DNA of 64,000 nucleotides from the NCBI RefSeq assembly GCF_002277955.1, contig NZ_CP018477.1, positions 3,245,206 through 3,309,205 of the forward strand, written 5' to 3'. The notes under the pieces were generated by a model, which had not been told where the DNA came from, did not search any database, and saw only the letters and a list, made by a program, of their open reading frames with translations. Both the position numbers and the translations under genes were made by a program. This document shows, in pieces, positions 17,327-34,376 of the stretch (its first letter is position 1; each line of letters starts with the position of its first letter). The stretch is from Thermogutta terrifontis (GTDB taxonomy: Bacteria > Planctomycetota > Planctomycetia > Pirellulales > Thermoguttaceae).

Positions 17327-18973
17327 TCAGCCACGAGCATCGCGCACTGTGTTGAGCACCGGAAGATGGAGGGGCGGTTTGCCCTCTCGAAAAGAAAGCG
17401 CCCCGGTGGGACAAATGGCGACGACCTGCTCTGCCAAATCCCCCAATGCCTCCTCCAATGTGCGATTGAAAGGAACCCCGATTCGCACGTCGAAACCGCG
17501 TCCGATAAAGGTCAATCCCAAAGGCGCCCGAGCAGCCTCGGTGACCTCGACACACAACCCGCAAAGAATGCATTTGCCCGGTTCGTAGATGATTCCAGAA
17601 GGCCGAGCGATGATCTCCAGTTTGGCACGCTCGCCGCGAAACCGATTGGGATCTGCCTGATAGCGTATGGCGTACTCACGCAAACGGCAGTGAGGAAGGG
17701 CTCGACAATCGCAGTGCAGACAGCGTGCCGCCTGGTGGACCGCCAGATCTTCGTCCCAGCGAGCGCCGGGCGGCGGCTCGGTGCGGGGGATTGGTGCAGC
17801 CAGCGTCGCCAGTTGCTCGATTTCCTCTTTTTCCAATCGCCCCATACGAACAGAGAACTTCTCCGGAACGCCTTCCACTCGGCCGAGGCGCAGGAGTTGG
17901 TCTATGCATCGGGCGGCCAGTTTTCCATCAGCACAACTGCGGACCACAAGGCCCCGTCCCCGAATCGCATTTCCGGCAGCGAAGACACGATCGAGCGGCG
18001 TTTGGAAGGTCTCGCGATTCACTGTGATGCCGCGTGGCGTGTGGGGAATGCCCAGTTGCTCCAGTCGTTCTGGCATTTGTTCCCCCAGCGCGAGAAGGAC
18101 TGCGTCGTAACTCTTTTGGAGTTCCGCGAGGGTGATGCCATTTTCCCCGGGCGGCACCAACGGTGTACATGGCCGGAACTCGACCCCGAGCCGGAAAATC
18201 ACATCAATTTCCGCGTCCAGAATATCTGCTGGCACGGGGCTGCCGCCGGGATCGGGACGGAAGCGGACGCGACCTCCCGCCCTGTCCGCTGCTTCAAACA
18301 GCACCACACGGTGTCCCAGTTGGCGAAGGTAAAAGGCGGCCGATAGCCCTGTCGGACCGGCACCGACGACGGCCACGGTTTCGCCGCTGTCCGGTTGGCA
18401 GGGCGGCAGGTAAGGATCGCCCGACGCAAGATCCCACTCGGCCACGTATCGTTTCAGACCGCACACCGCAACCGGGTCATCGGCTGCGTTTCGCCGGCAG
18501 CCTTTTTCGCAGGGTCGCGGACAGACCCAGCCCAGCGTGGCCGGAAGCGCGATATCCCGTTTGATCGTGCCGATTGCCTCCCGCAGCTCTTCCCTCTGAA
18601 TTTGCCGCAGCATGGTGGGAATATCCATGTGCGCGGGACAAGCGAAATGGCAGGGCGCCAGGCAGTCCCCCAGGTGATCGCTCAGCAGGAGTTCCAAAGC
18701 CGTGCGACGGACGTGGGCCACCTCGTCTGTTTCACTTTCCACGACCATCCCGTCGCTCACCGGAGTACCGCAGGAGGGCACCATCCGCGCCCGCCCATTC
18801 TCGATCACTTTCACCGTGCAGACCAAGCACGAGGTCTGGGGCTTGAAACCGTCCAGGAAACACAGGGTGGGAATATCGATCCCCAACTGCCGGGCCGCTT
18901 TGAGCACGCTCGTTCCCGATGGTACGGTGATACTGCGGCCGTCAATCGTCACACGGCAAAGTGCGGAGCTCAT
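17327..18973 (-). CDS. Iron-sulfur flavoprotein: NuoG-like 2Fe-2S domain, GltD-like FAD core, NuoG-like Fe-S tail
   Basis: A 548-residue fusion. Residues 1-90 are a plant-type 2Fe-2S domain (Cys 38, 49, 52, 68). Cys 104, 108, 112, 151, 155, 159 and 171 match the two 4Fe-4S sites of GltD/dihydropyrimidine-dehydrogenase N-termini. GAGPTG at 204-209 binds FAD. The NAD(P)-binding Rossmann domain that normally follows YDAVLLALG is missing: only about 25 residues separate it from the terminal FAD motif TPLDRVFAAGN (325-335). The C-terminal region has Cys 418, 421, 423, 429 and a NuoG-like segment, GKCILCGLCVEV and ICPTGAL (Cys 468, 471, 474, 521). It overlaps the NuoE-NuoF gene by four bases (ATGA), so the products probably form one complex. 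It resembles the third subunit of NuoEF-linked bifurcating enzymes but cannot bind NADPH in the usual way. Confidence 0.85.
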   Translation of the reverse strand: MSSALCRVTIDGRSITVPSGTSVLKAARQLGIDIPTLCFLDGFKPQTSCLVCTVKVIENGRARMVPSCGTPVSDGMVVESETDEVAHVRRTALELLLSDHLGDCLAPCHFACPAHMDIPTMLRQIQREELREAIGTIKRDIALPATLGWVCPRPCEKGCRRNAADDPVAVCGLKRYVAEWDLASGDPYLPPCQPDSGETVAVVGAGPTGLSAAFYLRQLGHRVVLFEAADRAGGRVRFRPDPGGSPVPADILDAEIDVIFRLGVEFRPCTPLVPPGENGITLAELQKSYDAVLLALGEQMPERLEQLGIPHTPRGITVNRETFQTPLDRVFAAGNAIRGRGLVVRSCADGKLAARCIDQLLRLGRVEGVPEKFSVRMGRLEKEEIEQLATLAAPIPRTEPPPGARWDEDLAVHQAARCLHCDCRALPHCRLREYAIRYQADPNRFRGERAKLEIIARPSGIIYEPGKCILCGLCVEVTEAARAPLGLTFIGRGFDVRIGVPFNRTLEEALGDLAEQVVAICPTGALSFREGKPPLHLPVLNTVRDARG

Positions 18974-21555
18974 GGCGAGGAAGAACTCCCTGTGGTGATA
19001 GCCACTTTTTGGGTGGAGTGGTCGAACAAGGGAATACTGCCGGAAACACCATTGCCCGCGGAATCAGCGATCTCCAAACGACCGGGGCCTGACGGAGGCG
19101 AAGTATGTATGGACATTTTGGAAGGTCCAACAATCTTGCCACCCGACTCAATGACTACCGCTCCTTCCGGACAAACGAGTCGGCAGGTATCACACCGGGT
19201 GCAAAGCTGATCATCGACAAAGTGTTTCTGGTACGGCCGAAGACGGATCGCATTGACGGGGCAATGCTGGGCGCACAATGTGCAACCGATGCATGCGTCC
19301 GTGATACGGTAGTGAATGAGGGGAGCACATCGTCCCGCCGGGCACTCACCCCGAATGTGGGCCTCGTACTCTTCCCGAAAATACCGTAGCGTGGTGAGGA
19401 CGGGATTCGGTGCGGTCTTGCCCAATCCACAGATACTTCCCGCCTTGACAGTTTGCGATAGATCTTCGAGCGTTGGAAGGTCCTCCGGCTGGGCACGCCC
19501 CTCACAGATTCGGTCCAAAATGTCGAGCATTCGCCGGGTGCCGATGCGGCACAAGGTGCACTTCCCACACGATTGATCCTGGGTGAAGCGGAGAAAGTAC
19601 CGGGCAATGTCCACCATGCAATCACTATCATCAAGGACAATCAAACCTCCCGAACCCATGATGGCGCCGGTGGCCGTCAGAGCCTCGTAGTCCACAGGGG
19701 TGTCGAAAAGCGATTCCGGGATACAACCTCCAGACGGACCACCCACCTGGACGGCTTTGAGCCTTCGGCCGGGCTGAGCACCACCCCCAATCTGTTCCAC
19801 GATTTCCCGCAGGGTTATGCCCATGGGCACTTCAATGAGACCACCCCGGCGTACCTTTCCCGCCAGAGCAAAAACTTTTGTTCCCTTGCTCGTCGCGGTG
19901 CCGAGCGCGGCAAATCGCGCGGCCCCGTTCCGTATGATCCACGGCACGAGGGCGAAGGTTTCCACATTATTGACGAGGGTGGGCTGGCCGGCAAAACCGA
20001 ATTCGGCGGGATAAGGCGGTCGTAAGCGGGGCATTCCACGGCGGCCCTCCAGGGAGGCGATCAGGGCCGTTTCCTCACCGCACACAAACGCCCCCGCACC
20101 TCCGTAAACACGAACATGGAAGGAATGATCCGTCCCCAGAATTCTGTCGCCCAGGATGCCCGCCTCTTCACACCGTCGAATCGCTTCCCGAACCCGTTCC
20201 ACCGCGAGAGGATATTCGGCACGGATGTAAAAAATGCCTTCAGTGGCCCCCACCGCCCGGGCTGCAATAAGCATTCCCTCAATGACCCGATAGGGAAACG
20301 ATTCAAGAATCATTCGGTCCATAAAGGCTCCGGGGTCTCCTTCGTCGCCATTGCAGGTAACGTATTTTTTGGTTCCCTGGGCCTTTCGCACGACTTCCCA
20401 TTTCACTCCCGTGGGAAAGCCCGCCCCGCCACGACCCCGCAGGCCACTCTGTTTCACCTCTTCGATAATCCGTTCCGGGGTCCATTCCTTCAGGGCCTTC
20501 TCCGCCGCTGAGAATCCTCCCCGAATCCGATATTCTTCCAGGTCCAAGGGATCGATTTCTCCCGCCCATTCTGTGGCGATCCGTATCTGTCGGCCGAGAA
20601 AGGCCTCCACAGGCGGATCCCGGACATCCAGCGGCTTCGGCGTCAGTTCGTCCTCGTCGAGGTCACCGAGCAGATGATCCAGCCACCGCTGCCATGTATA
20701 GTGCAGCCGGGTAAAAAAGTTTTTTCGGCGAAAATGCCGGTGAATGATCGCGGGGACATCTTCGGGTTGCACTCGGGAATAGACCCGGCGCTGACCTTGC
20801 TTGGGGATGACTTCCACCAACGGAGTCTGATGACAAATGCCGACGCATCCCACCCGCTTGACCCGTACGGAAACACCCGCCACGGCCGCCAGACTTTTCA
20901 CACGTTCATAAACCTGCCTGCTGCCCTGGGCCTGACAGCAGGACCCCAAACCGATGCGGATTTCTCCCTGGGTTGTTCCGTCCGTTTTGCCCAATAGCTC
21001 GTCCTGGGGGATGCCTTCTTTCTGCTGGTGGAGGAAGTCGGCCAGGACCTGTGGCACTCTGGTGGGCGTCAGCCGTCCGTAGGTAAGCTGATCAATCTGA
21101 ATAACAGGTGCCAGAGTGCAACAGCCCAGGCACGCCACTTTTTCGATGGTGAAAAGTCCCTCCGGGTCGGTGTCTTCTCCCTGGGGAATTCTTAAATGGC
21201 GCTCCAGCGACTCCTGGATACGGGGTGCCCCTTTCACGTGACAGGCAGTTCCGTGACACACCCGAATAATGTGCTGGCCAACAGGACGGAACCGAAATTG
21301 ACCGTAAAACGTTGCCACACCAACCAGTTGGGCTGGGCGGACCTGCGTCAATTCGCAGACACGTTCGAGGGCCTCCTGGGGCAGATAACGGAAATGGCTC
21401 TGAATGGCCTGGAGGATGGGAATCGCGGCTTCTGGTCCCCGTCCGCAGCGTTCCACGATCTCGTCAACAATTTGCAGGTCAATGGACGATTGCGGGGAGA
21501 CGGAGCCGCCGGCACTCATTACTGAAGACAGAGGTAAGTCACTGGTTGTTTTCAT
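18970..21555 (-). CDS. NuoE-NuoF fusion, NADH-oxidising flavin/iron-sulfur subunit
   Basis: An 861-residue chain. Residues 25-180 are a NuoE-type thioredoxin-like 2Fe-2S domain (Cys 100, 105, 142, 146). A second ferredoxin-like domain follows (Cys 206/207, 237, 241). From about 330 comes the NuoF core: GLRGRGGAGFPTG for FMN/NADH, GDEGDPGAFMDR, an SLBB domain, and SCGKCTLCRIGT for the N3-type 4Fe-4S cluster. The C-terminus bears two 4Fe-4S ferredoxin motifs (CIGCTLCAQHCP and CTRCDTCRLVCP). This is the HymA-HymB / HydB layout found in electron-bifurcating hydrogenases, formate dehydrogenases and Stn-type transhydrogenases. It should oxidise NADH (or reduce NAD) and exchange electrons through its clusters. 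No catalytic hydrogenase or formate dehydrogenase gene is nearby; the partner is the overlapping flavoprotein. Confidence 0.9.
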   Translation of the reverse strand: MKTTSDLPLSSVMSAGGSVSPQSSIDLQIVDEIVERCGRGPEAAIPILQAIQSHFRYLPQEALERVCELTQVRPAQLVGVATFYGQFRFRPVGQHIIRVCHGTACHVKGAPRIQESLERHLRIPQGEDTDPEGLFTIEKVACLGCCTLAPVIQIDQLTYGRLTPTRVPQVLADFLHQQKEGIPQDELLGKTDGTTQGEIRIGLGSCCQAQGSRQVYERVKSLAAVAGVSVRVKRVGCVGICHQTPLVEVIPKQGQRRVYSRVQPEDVPAIIHRHFRRKNFFTRLHYTWQRWLDHLLGDLDEDELTPKPLDVRDPPVEAFLGRQIRIATEWAGEIDPLDLEEYRIRGGFSAAEKALKEWTPERIIEEVKQSGLRGRGGAGFPTGVKWEVVRKAQGTKKYVTCNGDEGDPGAFMDRMILESFPYRVIEGMLIAARAVGATEGIFYIRAEYPLAVERVREAIRRCEEAGILGDRILGTDHSFHVRVYGGAGAFVCGEETALIASLEGRRGMPRLRPPYPAEFGFAGQPTLVNNVETFALVPWIIRNGAARFAALGTATSKGTKVFALAGKVRRGGLIEVPMGITLREIVEQIGGGAQPGRRLKAVQVGGPSGGCIPESLFDTPVDYEALTATGAIMGSGGLIVLDDSDCMVDIARYFLRFTQDQSCGKCTLCRIGTRRMLDILDRICEGRAQPEDLPTLEDLSQTVKAGSICGLGKTAPNPVLTTLRYFREEYEAHIRGECPAGRCAPLIHYRITDACIGCTLCAQHCPVNAIRLRPYQKHFVDDQLCTRCDTCRLVCPEGAVVIESGGKIVGPSKMSIHTSPPSGPGRLEIADSAGNGVSGSIPLFDHSTQKVAITTGSSSSP

Positions 21556-21793: not shown

Positions 21794-23680
21794 TCAGTGT
21801 CCGATGCAAAAAACGTGTTTTTCGCCCCGGATATACAACCGGCCGGGCTGAAAGGCAGGGCTGGTCACACAGCCTTCACCCAGTGAGTTTTCATGCTCGA
21901 TCTGGAATTCCTGATCACTGACCGTCCCCACCCAGCATGCGCCCTCTTTGGAAAACAGGTACACCCTGCCACCCGCATAGGAAGGCGACGACGCAAAGGT
22001 GTGGTCCGGGAACTCATGCTCCCAGAGCTTCTCACCGGTTTTAACGTTATAGCACGCCAGCACCGATGTGGAGGACATCCATAACACATAATGATCAAAA
22101 GCCAGCGGACTGCAGGTGTCCGGCAGGGCATCCTCCGCCTCCCAGACCTTGTGCGTCTTGGTGACATCACCCGATCCGTCCCCTCGAATGCCGTACATGT
22201 AATAGGAGTACTCGCCTCCAGCAACGACAAGATCGCCCTGGACGACGGGAGAAGGCCCGCAGTCACCTGTGGTGCCGTCAAACCGCCACCATTCCGTGCC
22301 GTTCTCCGGGTTGTAGGAAATCACAAACGGATTGGCTACCGTGATCAGTTGCAGTTTTCCAGCTAGGTTGGCAATGACGGGACTGGTCCACGAGTTGCCA
22401 GTGGGACGTGTGACCTCCCAAACGACCCGCCCAGTGGGCCCTTCGATCGCAAACAGTTTGGATTTGTCGTCATCGGGTTCTCCCTGATCGAAGAGCACGA
22501 TCACCCAATTTTTGTAGGTGCACAGGGAGGAAGCGTGTCCATAAGCGTTATCCGGGATCCCCAATCCCTTGACCCAGATGATGTTTCCCTGAAAATCCAG
22601 AGCGGCCAGGTCGCCGTTGGCAAAGATGGCGTAAACGCGACGACCATCGGTCGCCACCGTGGGTGCAGCAAAGCCGGTGTCCTTCATGACCTTCGGCTTC
22701 TTGCCCCGGCTTTCGGGAGTGGGTGGGATCTCTCGTTGCCAGAGCAACTTGCCAGAATCGGCATCCAGCGCGTAGCACACCCGTCGATCTTCCGTGGCGC
22801 CCGTCACGAAAACGAACCTGTCCCATACAACGGGCGAGTTGTGCCCCGGAAGCTCGATGGCCGTTTTCCACAGGATGCCCTGACCTTCTTCCGCATTCCA
22901 TTGCACGGGTGGGTCCGGATGGTTGGAAACGCCATCACCATTCGGACCACGAAATCGCGGCCAAAACCGTGCGAACTCCTCCGGAGGAGCAGCATCATTC
23001 CCGACCGGCGCCCGCGAGGATGCCGCAGATGGCCCCTTCTCGGACTTTTCAGATTGCGTCCCTTGCCCGGATGAGGCTTTCTCTGCGGATCCTCCTGTCT
23101 GAGGACCGGAACGCTGTGCCAGTTCTCCACCAGATTGGGTGGAAAGTGCTCGTTTCAACGCGAATGCCTGATGCACGCTGGCTCGTGAGTTCCAGATGAG
23201 AAATCCTCCGGCCACAATCAGCAGAACGACAAGTCCCGTCACGGCAGCCAAACGCCGGCGGGTTGCCCGCTCGAACGCCTCGTCCCACACCTCGGTCGTA
23301 CTTGGATGGGGCAAGGGACGACGAAGCGTGGAGGCAATTTTGGCCGAGATCGCGAACGTGATCAGGCCGGCGATCAAGAGGAGCGTTCCCCAGCGGTTGA
23401 ACGTTCTCGCTCGGAAATACTCCTGTCGCAATTCGAGATCGAGTTCGCGAATTGCTTCCTTCAGTTGTTCATTCTGGGGGTCGGCAGCCAGTTGTTTCTG
23501 AAGCGCCAGATACTGGGGAGAGTCCAAAGGATCCTTGGCCAGATGGGTGACATAGTTCCAGACCAGCAGACCAGTGACTACCAATGTGAAAGCCGCGGCG
23601 ACCACCGCAATTCGGAGCGCTGCCAGGAAGCCCGGTAACGGCCCGGATGAGGTTGTTAACCCGTCGCCCGGTTGCTTCAT
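21794..23680 (-). CDS. Membrane-anchored PQQ-like beta-propeller protein
   Basis: From the ATG at 23680 (AAAGGAG 12 bases upstream) the protein has about 628 residues; an ATG at 23716 is an alternative. Three transmembrane helices (about 19-42, 97-116, 144-164) precede a charged linker and a C-terminal propeller from about residue 235. The propeller carries repeated blades such as VCYALDADSGKLLWQ, WPRFRGPNGDG and KTGEKLWEHEF. The family includes PQQ dehydrogenases, but many planctomycete members lack an obvious enzymatic site, and I see no proof of PQQ or calcium binding. It is part of the co-oriented redox cluster, 238 bases upstream of the NuoE-NuoF gene. Confidence 0.82.
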   Translation of the reverse strand: MKQPGDGLTTSSGPLPGFLAALRIAVVAAAFTLVVTGLLVWNYVTHLAKDPLDSPQYLALQKQLAADPQNEQLKEAIRELDLELRQEYFRARTFNRWGTLLLIAGLITFAISAKIASTLRRPLPHPSTTEVWDEAFERATRRRLAAVTGLVVLLIVAGGFLIWNSRASVHQAFALKRALSTQSGGELAQRSGPQTGGSAEKASSGQGTQSEKSEKGPSAASSRAPVGNDAAPPEEFARFWPRFRGPNGDGVSNHPDPPVQWNAEEGQGILWKTAIELPGHNSPVVWDRFVFVTGATEDRRVCYALDADSGKLLWQREIPPTPESRGKKPKVMKDTGFAAPTVATDGRRVYAIFANGDLAALDFQGNIIWVKGLGIPDNAYGHASSLCTYKNWVIVLFDQGEPDDDKSKLFAIEGPTGRVVWEVTRPTGNSWTSPVIANLAGKLQLITVANPFVISYNPENGTEWWRFDGTTGDCGPSPVVQGDLVVAGGEYSYYMYGIRGDGSGDVTKTHKVWEAEDALPDTCSPLAFDHYVLWMSSTSVLACYNVKTGEKLWEHEFPDHTFASSPSYAGGRVYLFSKEGACWVGTVSDQEFQIEHENSLGEGCVTSPAFQPGRLYIRGEKHVFCIGH

Positions 23681-23892
23681 GCGATCGCTTGTCTCCTTTG
23701 GCGAGCCCGCCGTCATAGCCTCGGTTCTCCCGAAGTATTCCATCCTAAAACTGTCGGTCACCGTACCGGTTACAGCCTCACAGAGAGCGCTGCGCCCTCG
23801 TACAATTCCGCGGGAACTTTTCCTGTCGATTCGGAAAATGGCAATTTTGTGCGTGGATTCTCCGCTTTCGAATATTCTCGCCCGTGGTAAGG

Positions 23893-25335
23893 TCAGCGGA
23901 CATTCCCGCTGGTAACTGGGGAGGAAGCATCCGGAATTCGTGCACGAGGGAGTCGAGCAACTTCTTCCCATGAGAGCCAGCCCCGCTGGATCTGCTCTTC
24001 CGGACAGTACCAGAAACAGCGTCCGCACGCCACGCAGCGGCGGGGATCGGGGAGGTACTCTTCCCGTCGAGGCCGTGTGACCAGTTGTACGAATTTGAGG
24101 CCGATCACCAGGCCCACCCATATTCCGAAGATGGTCCCAGCACGAGCGAATACGCCAAGTCGCTCGACAGCCCTCTGGAATAAGGCGATTTCACTTTCTC
24201 CGGAATTGTGAAAAGCCTTGATGGCGTCCTGGGCGAATTTGTTATCCGGCGGCACCTGTCCCGCCTGCACCCATTGCGCCAGCCGCACCTGCGGATCCAA
24301 CTGCGCCAAAACCGGATGCAAGGCGTAGCCGGCCAATCCGCCAGCAATAAGCCACAGGGGCACAGCACCAAGCATGACCGCCAGACGGCGTCGTGCTGCT
24401 CGTCGCTCTGCCCGAGGAAGCGGCGGCACAGGGGCCACGATCGCTCCGTAAGGACACGCATCCTCGCACAGCCGGCAGCGAATGCATTCGGTGGGGGGGA
24501 TGCGCACATGCCACCGTGCCAGTTTGGAGCACAGGCCCAGAAGTGCTCCATAGGGGCAGAGGAACCGGCAATACGGTCGCCCGACAAAAATCCCGATCAA
24601 GAGTAAACTGCCGCCGAAAATCAACATGGATGTGGCGCCCGACCGCCGAAAAAACGCCACAAACGGATCATACTCGCAAATCACATAACTGGTGCCGGTG
24701 GCCGCGTAAAGAACGGCAAGTCCAAGATATATCCAAGAGAAAAGCCCCAGAGCATGTTCGAGCCAGTCGGGTAGCTTCTGCGGTCGAACCGCCGCAATTT
24801 CCTGAATGGCCCCCAGCGGACATACGGCCGCACAAAATACCCGGCCAAAGAATAGGGCAAAAGCAATCGGAAGGGCAAAAAAGAGAAGAACACTCCACGG
24901 AATAACGTACCGTCCATCAAAAAGTCCCTGGGCTACATCCTGAATAGCTCCAATCGGGCAGACGCACCCTTCCCGATGAAAGCCGAACCAGAACAAACTG
25001 ACACCCGCCAGCACAAACAGCCCGTTCCGCGAACGTTTCGCCAGGGCCAGGTAGGTCGCTGTTCCCAGGGCGATGACGAGGGCGATCGTGTCCACCATTT
25101 CCCAAATAGGTGAGGGTGGCGGAGGCACGGGCGTTTCCGGCAGTTTATGCGAAGTAAAATCCGGCGGGGGAAAGCGCTCGACGGCCAGCGCTGCCCACCG
25201 TCCCGCCCACAGAACGGCAATCACCCCCAAAAAGAGAATCGCATTCCATCGCCTCGATGCCCCTTTTTGCGAGCGGGGAGTTTCAGGTAGCCGACAATTT
25301 TTGCTTTGTTCCTGGTTGGAAGGACGGTCAATCAT
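23893..25335 (-). CDS. Membrane polyferredoxin, NapH/RdxA/CcoG-like
   Basis: A 480-residue integral membrane protein with about six hydrophobic helices. Between them are Cys-Pro motifs facing the cytoplasm in this family: GCVCPIGAIQDV, CAAVCPLGAIQEI and CRFLCPYGALLG. Two 4Fe-4S ferredoxin motifs, CIRCRLCEDACP and CVACGRCFWYCP, are also present. NapH-type proteins take electrons from quinol and hand them to exported ferredoxins such as NapG. Here the adjacent ferredoxin gene (25405-25992) fits that role, but no nitrate or nitrous oxide reductase is present. Its neighbours are propeller and NHL proteins. The 69-base gap to the ferredoxin gene suggests one operon. Confidence 0.88.
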   Translation of the reverse strand: MIDRPSNQEQSKNCRLPETPRSQKGASRRWNAILFLGVIAVLWAGRWAALAVERFPPPDFTSHKLPETPVPPPPSPIWEMVDTIALVIALGTATYLALAKRSRNGLFVLAGVSLFWFGFHREGCVCPIGAIQDVAQGLFDGRYVIPWSVLLFFALPIAFALFFGRVFCAAVCPLGAIQEIAAVRPQKLPDWLEHALGLFSWIYLGLAVLYAATGTSYVICEYDPFVAFFRRSGATSMLIFGGSLLLIGIFVGRPYCRFLCPYGALLGLCSKLARWHVRIPPTECIRCRLCEDACPYGAIVAPVPPLPRAERRAARRRLAVMLGAVPLWLIAGGLAGYALHPVLAQLDPQVRLAQWVQAGQVPPDNKFAQDAIKAFHNSGESEIALFQRAVERLGVFARAGTIFGIWVGLVIGLKFVQLVTRPRREEYLPDPRRCVACGRCFWYCPEEQIQRGWLSWEEVARLPRARIPDASSPVTSGNVR

Positions 25336-25404
25336 ATCGGATGAAACACCGAGTCAAATCTTTGGCACACAAAAAGAATGGCAATACAAATCTCCAGTTT
25401 GTAC

Positions 25405-25992
25405 TCACAGCGCGGCGCTCGGTTTGTAGAGATGCTTCAACAGATAGGGCTGTGATGCTGGAAGGCGTACAAATGCCTGCGAAGGACAGGCAATGGCGAT
25501 GGAGCACTGGTGGCAGTTCAGGCAACGGTCATGCCTCACCTGAAGGTAGAGCGATCCATTGCCAAAGGCAGCGCAACCCACCACGCACTTGCCGCACGCG
25601 ATGCACAGATTCTCGTCGATGGTGTATTCGTAGTAAGGCTCTTCGACCAGTTTCCGAATGAGGGCGCCCGTGGGGCAGAGCTGATTTTCCGCCCCGGTAT
25701 TGAGGGCCAGCGGCTCAGGCGGAAAATACCCAGTGCACAAATCGCAGTAGCCGCACATGGGAAAGCTGTTGACGCATTTGACGGCGGAGGGATCCAGAAC
25801 GCAGTGGGTCGCGCAGTTGCCGCAGGCGATGCACTTGTAAGGGTCAATCTGCCAAACCAGAGGTTCTCCCGATGCCTTTTTCCCTGCCAGGAACCCCACC
25901 AGCCCTCCCACACCGAGAAACGTCGCCATCTGGATCCCTTCCCGCAACATTTCTCGCCGCGAAATCCGTTTTTCGTTACCGGCTGGGCTCAT
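25405..25992 (-). CDS. Tat-exported multi-cluster ferredoxin, NapG-like
   Basis: A 195-residue protein with a twin-arginine signal (RISRREMLREG and a hydrophobic stretch GVGGLVGFLAG). Several 4Fe-4S motifs follow: CIACGNCATHC, CGYCDLC with a later Cys in LCPTGA, CIACGKCVVGC and CLNCHQC with ACPSQA. That suggests three to four clusters. It should sit on the outer face of the cytoplasmic membrane as partner of the NapH-like protein encoded next. AGGAGG lies 8-10 bases before the ATG at 25992. The gap to the preceding small gene is only 34 bases. Confidence 0.88.
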   Translation of the reverse strand: MSPAGNEKRISRREMLREGIQMATFLGVGGLVGFLAGKKASGEPLVWQIDPYKCIACGNCATHCVLDPSAVKCVNSFPMCGYCDLCTGYFPPEPLALNTGAENQLCPTGALIRKLVEEPYYEYTIDENLCIACGKCVVGCAAFGNGSLYLQVRHDRCLNCHQCSIAIACPSQAFVRLPASQPYLLKHLYKPSAAL

Positions 25993-26026
25993 GGCATTTC
26001 CCTCCTGCCGACAATTCGGCGGCTCG

Positions 26027-26386
26027 CTACGAATTAGATTGTGCGCTGGCCAGCTCCCCGCTCGTTTTCTCTTCCACTTTCCTCTTCAAATATCTTTCCG
26101 GGTAGCAATCCGTATGGGCTTGAGGGTCCTTCAGACTACTTCGGAAAACCTGGGCCTGAGGAAGGGAACAAGCCGCCACCCGCGAACAGCCGTTACATAC
26201 CGACCGCCGACAATCCACGTGGGTTTGCAGACCCACTTGCCGCAATCCAAGCTTCACTGTCGTTGCAGAGAGCACAACCAAAGCAGCCGCGCGAAGCGAC
26301 TCGCGCCAAAAACCTCGCCGAGTCATGGACTGGCAAGTTTCCCGGGACTTGCATTGTTCATGATTGGCCACATGCGAATTCGTCAT
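26027..26386 (-). CDS. Small Tat-signal, Cys-rich protein of unknown function
   Basis: A 119-residue protein I do not recognise. A twin-arginine motif (TRRGFWRES, Arg 23-24) precedes a hydrophobic stretch of about 16 residues. After the signal come Cys 59, 64, 67 and 73 in the pattern C-x4-C-x2-C-x5-C, and Cys 94, which could bind an iron-sulfur cluster or other metal. The C-terminal 30 residues are charged. It lies inside the redox cluster between the NHL and ferredoxin genes with a 34-base gap downstream, and its composition and frame look genuine. A start at ATG 26326, close to the Tat motif, is possible. Role unknown; a small electron carrier or a maturation factor are guesses. Confidence 0.6.
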   Translation of the reverse strand: MTNSHVANHEQCKSRETCQSMTRRGFWRESLRAAALVVLSATTVKLGLRQVGLQTHVDCRRSVCNGCSRVAACSLPQAQVFRSSLKDPQAHTDCYPERYLKRKVEEKTSGELASAQSNS

Positions 26387-26503
26387 GGCTGAGAGTTCTC
26401 ATTGTCCACGGAGTTCACTCGGTTTCCCGAATTGCCAGGTTGCTCACGGCGGAGAGCAGACCGCCAAAACACGATCTCGGGGCACAACCCCCTCCAACAT
26501 CTT

Positions 26504-27769
26504 TTATGATGCCGGCTCCAACTCTTTCCGAGCGGTAGTCTCCATATTGACGTTCTTCTTCATTTGGATCGCGCTCCCTTCGGCACTGTCAGACGTCGGC
26601 GGTTGGCCAGTCTTTTTCGGTCGAAAGGCCTCCAGGACGCTCCGTCCGGGATCGAGAATGAGGACCCATTGCTCGTCGGGAGTTTCGGGCGGCGAAAAAA
26701 CTTCCACATCGAGAACAGGAAGTCGGTCCTCGTCCCGCGTCTCTTCCCATTTGCGGGAAGGAGCAAAATGCTCGGGGGCAGCCACCCAACCTAATAGCTC
26801 CCCGTGTGCCGAGTAAACTTTCACGCGGGGAATCCCCTTTTCTGCCGTCACCACCCTCCCGTCAGAAAATAGCGCAATGTGAGCGGGGTTGCAACAGCCA
26901 CAGAAACCCGCCTCATCCAAGCCCGCTTTTCCCCAGAAGATTTCCAGGTCGCCCTCCCGTGTATAAACTTCGACGCGATGGACCCCAGGATTGACCACCC
27001 GCAGGAGACCGTCGGAACCCCAGGCGAGATCAAAATAAGGGCTGGGAATAATAAAACCGAGGATCCCGCGATCGACATCCCGGTGGCCAATCTCGGCTAT
27101 TTTCTCACCGTGGCGATCAACACGGTGAACAACCCGGTTGCCCGCATCCGCCACGAAAACCTCCTCACCAGCCACTGCGATGTCAGTAATCACCGCTTTA
27201 GAACCAAAAAAACTCCATTCCGACTGCACGTCACCCGCTGCGGACACGACGATGACGCGGGAGCCGCTTCCCACGAAAAAGAGCAAATCCGAATCAGACC
27301 CCTTCCCGGTCCGGCCATCCTGACCTCCCGAATGCCTTGCAACAGCAAGACACTGGGGCGAAAAAGACACGGCCATTTTCTCCTCCAATCGTCCCCCGTT
27401 TGCCGAAAGGGCGACGGGAAGCAGTTGATCATCCACAGCGACCCAGGCTGTGGCTTCCAGGACGGCCAACCGCCGGAGGTCCTTTCCTGGAATTTCGAGC
27501 TGCCAGGCAGGTTCGAAAACGATTTTCTCCTCGGGAACGGAGACATAATTGTCCAGGGTATAGACAAAGCGCTCGGGGAGTGCATTGGTGCGAGGGCTTC
27601 GCAGGTGATTTCGGTACACGAGCACGGCCGTGGCTCCGATGATAAGTCCCACAACAACGCAGGCAAGAGCCAGCAGCGCTTCCTGACGCAGTGAGCCTCT
27701 GGGGATGGTTGTCGGACCCTCACCTGACGGGTGATTCCGCAACGGAGCATGTATTCGTCTTGTGTCCAT
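26504..27769 (-). CDS. Membrane-anchored NHL-repeat protein
   Basis: A 421-residue protein with a short cytoplasmic N-terminus, one transmembrane helix (about residues 30-52) and an extracytoplasmic domain of NHL-type blades. Examples are VFVADAGNRVVHRVDRHG, GLLRVVNPGVHRVEVYT and RVVTAEKGIPRVKVYS. A Cys-rich turn CGCCNPAH (in AGFCGCCNPAHIALF) is conspicuous and might bind metal or form disulfides. NHL propellers mostly bind ligands or proteins; some act as peptidylglycine lyases. The position, 41 bases downstream of a PQQ-like propeller gene and upstream of the ferredoxin genes, suggests a sensor or docking part of an extracytoplasmic redox complex. Confidence 0.8.
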   Translation of the reverse strand: MDTRRIHAPLRNHPSGEGPTTIPRGSLRQEALLALACVVVGLIIGATAVLVYRNHLRSPRTNALPERFVYTLDNYVSVPEEKIVFEPAWQLEIPGKDLRRLAVLEATAWVAVDDQLLPVALSANGGRLEEKMAVSFSPQCLAVARHSGGQDGRTGKGSDSDLLFFVGSGSRVIVVSAAGDVQSEWSFFGSKAVITDIAVAGEEVFVADAGNRVVHRVDRHGEKIAEIGHRDVDRGILGFIIPSPYFDLAWGSDGLLRVVNPGVHRVEVYTREGDLEIFWGKAGLDEAGFCGCCNPAHIALFSDGRVVTAEKGIPRVKVYSAHGELLGWVAAPEHFAPSRKWEETRDEDRLPVLDVEVFSPPETPDEQWVLILDPGRSVLEAFRPKKTGQPPTSDSAEGSAIQMKKNVNMETTARKELEPAS

Positions 27770-27810
27770 GGTGGCGTACCGGGCAAGACGTCGAAAAACC
27801 GCCGTCGGTC

Positions 27811-29217
27811 TCAGTTGGCCGTCAAATCCAGGCAGACCATCTCCGTGCTGCTGCGAACAATGAGGCGGCCCTTGACAATGGCCATGGGGCCCCAGCAGTC
27901 ATGCCCCTCCAGCACCCGAGCCTGCGCCAGGGGCCGAAAGGCCTCGGGGGTGGCCTCCGCCATGGTCAGCCTGCCGTCGTCGTCCAACGCCAGAAGCAGG
28001 CCATTCGCGATCATATAAGGTCCCAATCCAAATCGATACTGGGGACCGCTCGCCCAGCGTTGGTTGCCGTTCAGGTCGAGGCAGACCATCTGTTTGTCCT
28101 TTTCTCGCACGCCGTAAATAAACCCTTTGTACAGCACGGGGGTTTGCTGGGTCGAGCCAAACTGCTGGGGAGGAAGCTGCGATTCCACCGCGGGGATGAT
28201 CCTGTCGCCCTCTTTTTTTAAACGCATGAGCAGGGCACCCGAATCGTAGCCGCCGCAGAAAAAAATGCGATCATCGGGCAGAGCAAGCGGAGACGGAACG
28301 GTGGCGAGGCTGATTTTCCACTCGGATGTGTCCCAAAGGATGGTGCCGTCATCCGCTCGAACCGCGACCACGCCACCGGTCGCACAATACACATACATTC
28401 GAATCCCTTGGAACACGACCGGCATAATGGAAGAATGGGTCATTTTCCAGTCGCGTGGATTGGGCGTTCGCCACAATTCCTTGCCCGTTGCCGCATCAAC
28501 CGCCACCATAAGGGCCTGAGGTCCGCCCGGCGCGAGGATCACCCGATCGTTCTCCACCAGCGGGCATTGGCCCGTATACCAGGGTGGCACGGTAGCCCCC
28601 CAGCGTTCCGCCATATCGATGAGCCAGTAGTTCTTGCCCGTCAAACGATCCAGACAGGCCACGTGGCACTTTGGGCCAATGGTCACCACGTACTTATCGG
28701 TCACCGTTGGAATGGTACGGGACATGCCATGGTTGCGTTTGACAGTATTGTGATAGCGGAACTGCCAAATATCCCGACCATCGTCCAGCGATAGACAGCG
28801 GACCACGTCTTCTTCCTTGTCGCGATCGTAGTCGATAATGTAGACCCGCCCGTCCTTGATGGCTGCCGCTGCGAATCCTTCCCCCACTTCAATGGACCAG
28901 ATTCGCCGGGGTCCCTCCGGTGGCCAGGAGCGTGCGAGAGTGACGCTGGGATCTTCCCAAATGGCATCCAGATTGGGTCCGCGGAACCTCGGCCATTCCC
29001 CCGGAACCGACGAAGGTTTCCCTTCCAGCGTCACAAGCGTGCCGGATAGCTCGCGTTTTTCGGACTTCTGTCTGATCGACCGAACTGGCCGATCCAATCC
29101 GGGGACGCGGCGTTCCAGCGGCGGCGTTGGCACCGCCACCATCCAAGTCACAATCGCCCCCAATCCAAGGATGGCGACGGTGAGCGGAAGGAGAACTGTC
29201 CAAGCAAAGGAACGCAT
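27811..29217 (-). CDS. Exported PQQ-like beta-propeller protein
   Basis: A 468-residue protein. The N-terminal hydrophobic stretch (about 7-27) is an uncleaved anchor or signal. The rest is an eight-bladed-type propeller with repeats such as CLSLDDGRDIWQFRYH, VAVDAATGKELWRT and VRADDGTILWDTS, and the entry motif WPRFRGPNLDA shared with the other propeller at 21794-23680. The shared motif marks the two as paralogues. No clear catalytic Asp/Glu or Cys-Cys pair for a quinoprotein dehydrogenase is visible. It is 23 bases after the Gfo/Idh/MocA gene and 41 bases before the NHL gene, so it sits early in the redox operon. Confidence 0.82.
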   Translation of the reverse strand: MRSFAWTVLLPLTVAILGLGAIVTWMVAVPTPPLERRVPGLDRPVRSIRQKSEKRELSGTLVTLEGKPSSVPGEWPRFRGPNLDAIWEDPSVTLARSWPPEGPRRIWSIEVGEGFAAAAIKDGRVYIIDYDRDKEEDVVRCLSLDDGRDIWQFRYHNTVKRNHGMSRTIPTVTDKYVVTIGPKCHVACLDRLTGKNYWLIDMAERWGATVPPWYTGQCPLVENDRVILAPGGPQALMVAVDAATGKELWRTPNPRDWKMTHSSIMPVVFQGIRMYVYCATGGVVAVRADDGTILWDTSEWKISLATVPSPLALPDDRIFFCGGYDSGALLMRLKKEGDRIIPAVESQLPPQQFGSTQQTPVLYKGFIYGVREKDKQMVCLDLNGNQRWASGPQYRFGLGPYMIANGLLLALDDDGRLTMAEATPEAFRPLAQARVLEGHDCWGPMAIVKGRLIVRSSTEMVCLDLTAN

Positions 29218-31648: not shown

Positions 31649-32050
31649 TCACTCCATCAGTTCCGGAGGTACATCCACCGGAAGTTTGCCAGCCTTAATC
31701 CGATCGCCAAATGTGGGAGACTTTGGATCCTTTGGATCGACCTTTTCCTTCTCCACGACCTCGAGGGCCTTCTGGATCTTTTCCTTGTTGCGGGCATCAG
31801 TTTTACGGTCCAGCAGTTTGTCGAGGGCCTGGCCGTACGCATTCCGTTTGGTCTTGTCATCACCCAAATGGCAAATGTTGCACCCGGCGCGATCGACCAA
31901 CTCGGCGAATGCCCGATCTTTCGGGTCGTTGCTGTCTTTCTTGACATAGCGCTCCACAAACTGGGTGCGGAATTGGGTCACCGCCAGCGCCTGAGATCCG
32001 CACCACACAGCTCCAACCACTAGGGCGGTCACTCCCAACAGCTTCTTCAT
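31649..32050 (-). CDS. Small exported monohaem cytochrome c-like protein
   Basis: A 133-residue protein with a signal peptide (residues 1-23, VWCGSQALA end). A single haem c motif, CNICH, lies at residues 57-61. The rest is helical and charged (NAYGQALDKLL, repeated Lys/Asp/Glu). No distal Met is obvious, so the sixth haem ligand is unclear. It is of the size of small periplasmic electron carriers. It is a single gene with its own terminator, 1.6 kb upstream of the redox cluster on the same strand, so a functional link is possible but unproven. GAGGAGG lies 11 bases before the ATG. Confidence 0.72.
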   Translation of the reverse strand: MKKLLGVTALVVGAVWCGSQALAVTQFRTQFVERYVKKDSNDPKDRAFAELVDRAGCNICHLGDDKTKRNAYGQALDKLLDRKTDARNKEKIQKALEVVEKEKVDPKDPKSPTFGDRIKAGKLPVDVPPELME

Positions 32051-32504: not shown

Positions 32505-34235
32505 TCAGCGGGTGGGCGTACCTTGAAGCTTGGCCAGGAGCCGTTTCGCGGCCCCCGGGGGATCGGGAGCATCCACCACGGCCGCGGATACCGCCACGCG
32601 AAAAATTCCCGTTTTCAGTACCGCATCGATGTTCGACTCGTTGATGCCCCCGATGGCGAATGCGGGCAGGGTGATTTCCGAGGCGACCTGTCGCAAGAAC
32701 TCCAACCCGGGGAAGTGCGAAAACTGTTTGGTTGACGAAGGAAACGTCGGCCCACATCCAATGTAATTGGCCCCATCGAGGACAGCCTGTCGGGCCTGCT
32801 CGATATCATGGGTGGAAACACCTATCAACATGTCAGGGCCTACAAGGGCGCGGACATCCTTGACCGTCAGTTCCTCCTGCCCCACATGGACTCCGTCAGC
32901 CTGACTCAGGACGGCCAGATCCGGGCGATCGTTCATGATGAACAACGTTTGTGTGCCCCGGGTGATTTTGCGAGCAATCCGTGCCCGTTCCAACAGTAAG
33001 CGATCCTCGAGCGTTTTCTCTCGGAGTTGAATCACGTGGACACCGGCTTCCACAAGTGACGTGATCAGGGCCTGGAATTCGTCAGGTGAAGGCCGTGCGT
33101 CCACCAGGACATAAAGTCGCGCGTTTTGCAGACGCTCCCGAGAGAGCTCGGTGATGCGAATGGCCCGATGCAGTGTGTAACACCGGTAGCGAAGTTGTTC
33201 AAAGCGCTCTGCTAGTTCCGGTTGGAGTACCTTCGCGCATTCTTCCACGCTGCGGATGGCCTCGCGAACGCGGGATAAATTCGCATCGAGCAGCCCTTCC
33301 ACAGACTCGCGTTTCATTTCGTGGGAATGCTTGATCCGGGTGCCGACATCGGTTTGAGTTTCCCGGGCAGCGAGGCGGTAGGCCATGGGAAATTCGCCCG
33401 CAAGCCGGGAAAACGCATGACGAATGTCTTTAAGCTCGCCCACAAGAAAGGGATCATCCAGCACAAACCGAACATAATCTTCCACAACACGGAGGCCTTC
33501 CAACGCACGGTTGATCGCTGCATCCACGATGCGATAGAGTCCCATCGCGGTGGAGACGGTGAGTTTCGAAACGGCATCCTCCTTTTTCGCCTCGTCAGAA
33601 GACGTCGTGCGAGAATCTGCTGGAGGTTCTTCTCGCCGAAGTCTTTCTTCTTCCGGAGGTTCACAAGAAGCGGAGGGCTTGATCTGCGCATGACCCACTT
33701 CGGGCGAAAAAATTGATTCTTCTTCCCCGGGCGACGGCAGAGCTTCAATCTGGCCCCCCACGGCTTCCTGTGATGCCGACCGCCACTGCCCACCGGTGCC
33801 ATAGCGCTGCAGAATCTGCTGCCGGAGCTGTGTGAAATTCAATCCCTGTTCGCGGAGCCAGTCGGCAACGGGGTGCTCGCAGCCCGCCAGTCCCAAGAGC
33901 AAATGCTCCGTGGAGATAATGGGCGGCCAATCGCCCCAATCCATATAAAGATCGACCGCTGTGAAGAGGCTTTTTACTTCGGGATGGAATTGCGGCGGTG
34001 ACTCCAGGGGAATTGGTGGCGGCTCCGCAGACCGATGAAGTTCTGGCCAATGGGCGAGAAGTAATTCCTCGCTGATACCGAGTTCTCGCAGAATCATCGC
34101 CGCGCGGCATTCCGGTTCAGCGAGCAGACCCATGAGGATGCTTACCAGCCGGAGACCGCCGGACCCTTCCCCGTACTGCCAGGTTGCAGCAGCGGCCAGC
34201 GCACGAAGCGCTCCTGGTGTAAATTCACGTTCCAT
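32505..34235 (-). CDS. thiE: Thiamine-phosphate synthase with N-terminal Clp-N-like domain
   Basis: From the ATG at 34235 the protein has about 576 residues; a GTG at 34340 would add 35. Residues 1-145 look like a Clp N-domain: two helical repeats, with the characteristic [12 protein letters not shown]. An acidic Ser-rich linker follows (about 145-215). Next is the helical domain seen in long ThiE proteins (GLYRIVDAAINRALEGLRV), then a ThiE TIM barrel with MNDRPDLA, ADGVHVGQEEL, YIGCGPTFPS and FAIGGINESN. The barrel has the diphosphate and thiazole-phosphate binding residues, so it should condense HMP-PP with thiazole phosphate. The Clp-N fusion is not usual for ThiE and may bind other proteins. 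The gene follows the HD-GYP/GGDEF gene on the same strand. Confidence 0.87.
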   Translation of the reverse strand: MEREFTPGALRALAAAATWQYGEGSGGLRLVSILMGLLAEPECRAAMILRELGISEELLLAHWPELHRSAEPPPIPLESPPQFHPEVKSLFTAVDLYMDWGDWPPIISTEHLLLGLAGCEHPVADWLREQGLNFTQLRQQILQRYGTGGQWRSASQEAVGGQIEALPSPGEEESIFSPEVGHAQIKPSASCEPPEEERLRREEPPADSRTTSSDEAKKEDAVSKLTVSTAMGLYRIVDAAINRALEGLRVVEDYVRFVLDDPFLVGELKDIRHAFSRLAGEFPMAYRLAARETQTDVGTRIKHSHEMKRESVEGLLDANLSRVREAIRSVEECAKVLQPELAERFEQLRYRCYTLHRAIRITELSRERLQNARLYVLVDARPSPDEFQALITSLVEAGVHVIQLREKTLEDRLLLERARIARKITRGTQTLFIMNDRPDLAVLSQADGVHVGQEELTVKDVRALVGPDMLIGVSTHDIEQARQAVLDGANYIGCGPTFPSSTKQFSHFPGLEFLRQVASEITLPAFAIGGINESNIDAVLKTGIFRVAVSAAVVDAPDPPGAAKRLLAKLQGTPTR

Positions 34236-34376
34236 GGCAATCGAGAAAAACCTGCCTTCGGAGGATTTCGCCGGCTCTTCCGCATGCGTGTTTCTCAATG
34301 AACTTGGCTCGCCGACATGCCGCGTGCCGGCTGTCTTCACTCCATGGTACAGAACAGCCGATGGGATCGGAAAGAC

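Follow-up and report, generated by a model that had tools for sequence, protein, structure and literature searches.

What do two beta-propellers, an NHL-type propeller and a NapGH-like ferredoxin pair do side by side in Thermogutta terrifontis? The question is raised by a window of 64,000 nucleotides (contig NZ_CP018477.1, positions 3,245,206 to 3,309,205) in a genome that consists of one contig of 4.81 Mb. An initial annotation made from the letters alone had described two propellers that share a WPRFRGPN motif but differ in topology, together with an NHL protein carrying a CGCCNPAH turn, and had proposed that they form a platform outside the membrane which receives electrons from, or senses, the ferredoxin pair. 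The open reading frames (ORFs) lie where it placed them, all on the minus strand, and its description of them is accurate: WPRFRGPN is present in both propellers, PropA has three transmembrane segments versus one in PropB, and the NHL protein contains CGCCNPAH. What it overlooked is an adjacent putative bifurcation core, NuoEF861, and the partner subunit K548, whose genes lie downstream of PropA on the same strand and share four overlapping bases. With these two included, we consider it probable, at roughly 60%, that the eight genes between 29217 and 17327 together specify a single redox complex of the Bfu type, anchored in the membrane and with outer propellers.

In the Bfu family as set out by Schut et al. 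(PMC9304861), the BfuBC core deals with both NADH and ferredoxin, and BfuA gives access to a third partner; the third substrates listed there are H2, small metabolites, NADP+, F420 and quinones. Residues 198-803 of NuoEF861 align to solved bifurcating B subunits through the Trx domain, the FMN core, the linker and the C-terminal ferredoxin (716.6 bits for 9bov_B, 712.5 for 9n5u_B, 696.9 for StnB, 8oh5_B, and 629.1 for HydB, 7q4v_B), and the N-terminus is NuoE-like (Pfam 2Fe-2S_thioredx, 173.5 bits). We assessed the ligands from the columns of a 27-row alignment, which supersedes a first, strict regular-expression screen of the Bfu motifs (for instance, B1 in 3/27 and the FMN loop in 8/27). The FMN loop GRGG, the NGDEGDPGA motif, the linker residues His733, Cys738 and Cys743 and the eight C-terminal cysteines that are the B3/B4 ligands are present in all 27 rows, with Thr714 in 26; the four B1 cysteines occur in 27, 27, 25 and 27 rows, and the C1 [2Fe-2S] cysteines in 26, the gapped row probably being L099, where the gene is cut by a contig end. 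The linker His and Cys form a B2 or Zn site, of which, according to PMC9304861, the His is absent from non-bifurcating homologues. With FMN, C1, B1, linker and B3/B4 ligands in the manner of the HydABC-like family, NuoEF861 is, as predicted from its sequence, a fused BfuC+BfuB (HydCB/StnAB-like) bifurcation core.

The same genome holds two further NuoF/HydB-like genes, at 4122158-4123612 (L062, G000:C1; 57% identity to NuoEF861) and at 3025972-3027687 (L063; 49%). These are perhaps the [FeFe]-hydrogenase loci of the T. terrifontis genome paper (PMC5673643); that paper lists hydrogenase genes by locus tag, and its main text contains neither "ferredoxin" nor "Rnf".

The solved counterparts of K548 are the partner subunits 9bov_A, 9n5u_A and 8oh5_C, and in all three alignments the match breaks at target positions 290-294 and resumes at 420-440, skipping about 130-145 residues. 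Since StnC is described as housing FAD and NADPH in two Rossmann folds (PMC10482914), the skipped stretch is, judging by its position, most likely the NADPH-binding Rossmann domain. A single strict dinucleotide motif was found in 9/9 K548 proteins (alignment A3), and a looser pattern gave two or three in 8/29 rows. The remaining cofactor sites are well kept: K548 has Fer2_4 and Fer4 matches in Pfam, its five cluster motifs have their cysteines in 28-29 of 29 rows save for Cys171 (25), and GxGxxG is found in 29/29. Relative to the Stn/Nfn-Bfu transhydrogenases (StnABC, 8oh5; NfnABC, 9n5u), NuoEF861 corresponds to StnA and StnB fused, and K548 retains the NuoG-like [2Fe-2S], GltD FeS and FAD GxGxxG regions of StnC. 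In contrast to StnC, it lacks the NADPH-binding domain and the C-terminal remainder, and in contrast to the Stn/Nfn-Bfu systems as a whole, the set in the window is accompanied by NapGH, by propellers and by a hairpin in the membrane. On the skipped stretch and the single strict dinucleotide motif, we reject an Stn-type NADPH transhydrogenase.

To see how far these genes travel together, we searched 392 Planctomycetota genomes with a K548 profile. Full-length matches (E 1.3e-150 or better) were found in 21 genomes, the window's own among them, and any match at 1e-40 in 140/392, many of them partial. Twenty K548 neighbourhoods were taken, 19 from the 21 full-length matches plus one partial. The complete order PropB-NHL-NapG-NapH-PropA-NuoEF-K548 is present in 13 of them; L108, at a contig start, is without PropB, L100 has six genes and no PropB beside NHL, and contig ends truncate L102, L099 and L111. 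Starting instead from the NHL protein gave 15 loci: all seven genes are present in four, all but PropA in another four (L049, L051, L052 and L053) and the five-gene half in three (L041, L042 and L045), while two end early (L048 and L039) and two hold only paralogous NHL-propeller pairs (L047 and L050). Overall, the complete order occurs in 17 loci from 12 families, so that the propellers and the NapGH-like pair do form one conserved genetic unit, as had been supposed. Genomes with the operon number 20 of the 392 sampled, in 13 families, a spread but patchy distribution; this count includes G517 and G331, which show only NuoEF-K548 at contig edges, and leaves out weaker fragments. Of 13 genomes tested, all 11 with the operon-type NHL encode the NADP-less K548, and the two with only the paralogous NHL (L047 and L050) have no K548 match at 1e-40. 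PFOR over its cut-off was found in 14/20 operon genomes versus 119/372 others (Fisher p 0.001, relatedness ignored), which fits cells with reduced ferredoxin.

A further tie between the two halves of the set is an exchanged membrane element. PropA opens with a transmembrane-coil-transmembrane hairpin ahead of its third transmembrane segment and propeller, and in 4/4 PropA-less loci it is the NuoEF N-terminus that bears a homologous hairpin. Profile comparison of the two (22 versus 4 sequences) gave a score of 28.6 across 81 columns (P 3e-4, probability 40%). None of 100 class-permuted controls did as well (their maximum was 21.2), nor did the reversed alignment (16.7) or any of seven NapH windows (16.7 or lower). 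The simplest reading would be that in either arrangement the hairpin holds the cytoplasmic core to the membrane.

The NapH-like protein has seven transmembrane segments by hydropathy. Its cysteines 124, 126, 168, 172, 220, 256, 260, 287, 290 and 294 are all kept in 29/29 rows and Cys284 in 25/29, and the four C-terminal cysteines are present in 27/27 rows that reach that region. NapG has its 16 cysteines in 28/28 rows and an RR pattern within the first 110 residues of the frame in 27/28, and this twin-arginine pattern with four [4Fe-4S] motifs leaves a link between ferredoxins and an outer propeller platform plausible, as first suggested. The pair resembles the NapGH quinol dehydrogenase and the NapH-like flavinylated systems covered in PMC8238504, which likewise combine a polytopic NapH-like protein with a twin-arginine polyferredoxin. 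It differs from them in that the window NapH falls below the cut-off of the NapH-family model TIGR02163 (53.8 versus 213.05 bits), and in that the eight proteins scanned gave no ApbE-type FMN_bind match. Between NHL and NapG, 16/28 loci have by pattern a small ORF with four cysteines (Cys4), a count from which one L112 pattern match was dropped by eye as NapG's own start. These p119-type ORFs (window, L039, L042-L044, L046, L097, L100, L101 and L103-L109) combine a twin-arginine-like start and a hydrophobic stretch with C-x(3-8)-C-x2-C-x(4-6)-C, frequently followed by LPxA; a similar small Cys4 ORF was recognised by eye in L045, and the window copy gave no Pfam or NCBIfam match.

NHL421 has a single transmembrane segment by hydropathy (33-51) and no Pfam match at E 0.01, and its model (pLDDT 81.9) has the NHL propeller fold (Foldseek, TRIM2 NHL, TMt 0.79, E 1.1e-15). 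It shares this fold with TRIM-type NHL domains and differs from them in its membrane anchor, its CCNP turn and the missing Pfam match. The turn lies just ahead of a predicted strand, and CCNP is found in 29/29 aligned operon-type NHL proteins, with Glu267, Phe289, Gly291, Cys292, Cys293, Asn294, Pro295, Glu310, Lys311 and Lys317 all invariant. Of the CGCC that had been singled out as a possible metal site, then, the CC pair is conserved and the first cysteine (Cys290) is not, being kept in only 14/29, which rules out CGCC as a conserved four-residue site. Lack of conservation at CGCC had been named in the initial annotation as a refuting outcome, and it applies to this first cysteine but not to the CC pair. 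CCNP is also retained in the paralogous NHL-propeller pairs of L047 and L050, whose genomes gave no K548 match and which have no NapGH beside them; there the turn is in separate use. A profile comparison of the NHL and PropB alignments showed no relation (probability 6.1).

PropB has one transmembrane segment (8-26) by hydropathy, and its AF2 model (pLDDT 89.7) is closest in Foldseek to tetrathionate hydrolase and BamB propellers, with TMt from 0.60 (6l8a) to 0.76 (3q7m) but only 15-20% identity. Positions conserved in at least 96% of 27 rows, among them Asn162, His163, Trp213, Tyr214, Gln217, Cys218, His261, Ser263 and Trp442, fall in loops between predicted strands; most of them are not kept in the paralogues of L047 and L050, where the NH, WYxGQCP, HxS and WxP positions are largely missing. 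As judged from the order of the loops rather than from coordinates, one face of the propeller may thus carry a specific site. Another large PropB-like propeller ORF stands immediately after K548 in L104 and L107 (349 and 351 bits), with weaker ones in L100 and L106. PropA has its transmembrane segments, by hydropathy, at 169-187, 245-263 and 291-309. Its 775-aa ORF as listed begins within the NapH gene. Homology in seven relatives starts only at residues 140-178, so the true start is probably Met127, Met136 or Met148 (23743, 23716 or 23680). At the DNA level, the pattern for WPxFRGP has four genomic sites versus none when the control, the reversed pattern, is used. Since two of these sites sit away from the cluster, next to other PQQ_2 matches, the motif is the mark of a propeller type and not of this system.

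Joining the Bfu-family scheme (PMC9304861) with the proposal that NapH-like proteins move electrons across the membrane (PMC8238504) gives the following model. In the cytoplasm, NuoEF861 would exchange electrons with NADH at the FMN and with ferredoxin at the C-terminal [4Fe-4S] domain, and K548, its NADPH domain lost, would serve as an iron-sulfur wire leading from NuoEF861 to NapH. The clusters of NapH would carry electrons through the membrane to NapG, predicted to be exported with four [4Fe-4S] clusters, and from there they may pass through the small Cys4 protein, where present, to the outer platform of PropB, NHL with its CCNP site, and PropA. In fermenting cells, NADH and reduced ferredoxin would probably be oxidised together (confurcation) and their electrons passed to quinone or to an acceptor in the periplasm; the opposite direction would also be possible. 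That this is a membrane-spanning Bfu member in the full sense, with inner NADH and ferredoxin coupled by bi- or confurcation to a propeller-held substrate or metal site outside via K548 and NapH/NapG, we hold tentatively, at a little short of even odds.

Electrons could also flow inward, with PropA and PropB as enzymes dependent on pyrroloquinoline quinone (PQQ) that feed NapG, which would bear out the PQQ cofactor that the initial annotation had suspected. Both propellers have PQQ_2 matches, PF01011 (PQQ) is over its cut-off of 26.7 bits in PropB (31.1) and below it in PropA (25.6), and quinoproteins appear further down the PropB fold list (7wmk at rank 47, 4mh1 at rank 50), below the tetrathionate hydrolase and BamB matches at its top. 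Neither propeller has an adjacent Cys-Cys pair or the quinoprotein signatures. In the T. terrifontis genome, the best PqqE score was 92.7 bits against a cut-off of 381, and the search for PqqC gave nothing, a weak absence in both cases in that the control genomes failed the cut-offs too. On the fold ranking, the missing Cys pair and signatures and these searches, though the latter had no passing control, we reject the propellers as PQQ enzymes, and consider the inward route highly improbable.

The remaining explanations concern what NapH and the core do. NapH could pass electrons to quinone instead of across the membrane, in which case the Bfu core and K548 would reduce menaquinone through NapH, with NapG and the propellers only stabilising, sensing or assembling. 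PMC8238504 presents NapH-like proteins as putatively linked to quinone, and PMC9304861 predicts for other Bfu clusters a quinone-linked Nuo-Bfu; however, the 16 cluster cysteines and RR pattern of NapG would be needless in a purely structural part, and we regard this enzyme as unlikely. Somewhat less likely still are two separate systems in a common regulon, a cytoplasmic NADH/ferredoxin enzyme of NuoEF and K548 and a NapGH-propeller membrane system. It is in keeping with such a division that in 4/11 genomes (L041, L042, L045 and L048), all of the window's family, the halves are unlinked, with NuoEF-K548 on another contig. Nevertheless, every tested genome with the operon-type NHL has K548, linked or not, the hairpin switches between PropA and NuoEF, and the complete order recurs across families, all of which argue against such a division.

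Several observations do weigh against the single membrane-spanning complex that we favour. The Trx-domain (B5) cysteines are often incomplete (Cys206 in 18, Cys207 in 24, Cys237 in 23 and Cys241 in 15 of 27 rows), and the window protein itself has them. Asp335 of K548, after the second FAD motif, is kept in just 3/29, because of which the FAD may be absent. Two of the 20 K548 loci (L114 and L115) lack operon neighbours, and the unlinked K548 copy in G254 is interrupted by a stop. In the four PropA-less loci, the NHL protein shows neither a transmembrane segment nor an export signal, and none is seen in L100 and L116 either, whose over-long frames were examined over their first 150 residues. 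An outer location is thus not common to all. Finally, RnfC is commoner with the operon (10/20 versus 92/372 others, p 0.018, relatedness ignored); the same counts rule out the operon as a plain Rnf substitute.

Table 1. Genes of the putative complex in the window (window positions, all features on the minus strand)
Feature	Position	Strand	Predicted content
PropB468	27811..29217	-	N-terminal transmembrane anchor and BamB/tetrathionate-hydrolase-like propeller with WPRFRGPN; PQQ_2 93.7 bits
NHL421	26504..27769	-	Transmembrane-anchored NHL-type propeller with CGCCNPAH turn; TRIM2-NHL-like fold
p119	26027..26386	-	Small protein, twin-arginine-like start, four closely spaced Cys
NapG195	25405..25992	-	Ferredoxin, twin-arginine pattern, 16 invariant Cys (4 x [4Fe-4S] motifs)
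NapH480	23893..25335	-	NapH-like iron-sulfur protein with seven transmembrane segments and an extra C-terminal 4Fe-4S motif; Fer4_5 60.2 bits
PropA	21794..23743	-	Transmembrane-coil-transmembrane hairpin, third transmembrane segment and propeller with WPRFRGPN; ORF opens at 24121
NuoEF861	18970..21555	-	Fused BfuC (NuoE-like [2Fe-2S]) and BfuB (Trx-like domain, FMN/NADH site, H-x4-CPAxxC linker, 2 x [4Fe-4S])
K548	17327..18973	-	BfuA/StnC-like subunit without NAD(P)-binding Rossmann domain; [2Fe-2S], GltD-type FeS, FAD GxGxxG, C-terminal FeS

A scan of genome contigs with the NHL protein returned one locus only, in Thermogutta sp. MAG-77, whose contig carries PropB, NHL, NapG and NapH at 81-96% identity (NapH cut by the contig end) and a p119 counterpart at 55%. 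Near the operon, window positions 31649-32050 encode a small, probably exported protein with CxxCH (CNICH), a possible c-type haem protein, and a 611-aa ORF at 32505-34340 resembles, as judged from sequence, a Clp-N-type domain joined to thiamine-phosphate synthase.

The membrane-bound types predicted in PMC9304861 are two, Mbh-Bfu and Nuo-Bfu, and the word NapH does not occur in its main text. We did not find this gene set described in the literature, PMC8238504 and PMC11929135 included, and the members of the 17 Bfu clades without assigned function in PMC9304861 could not be compared; the set appears to be a Bfu-family variant not found described before. If our reading is true, a Bfu core wired outward through NapH and NapG would give low-potential electrons an additional, transmembrane route. 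It would also supply a function for this gene set, scattered as it is across the Planctomycetota, and would explain propellers that annotation would otherwise label as PQQ- or BamB-like.

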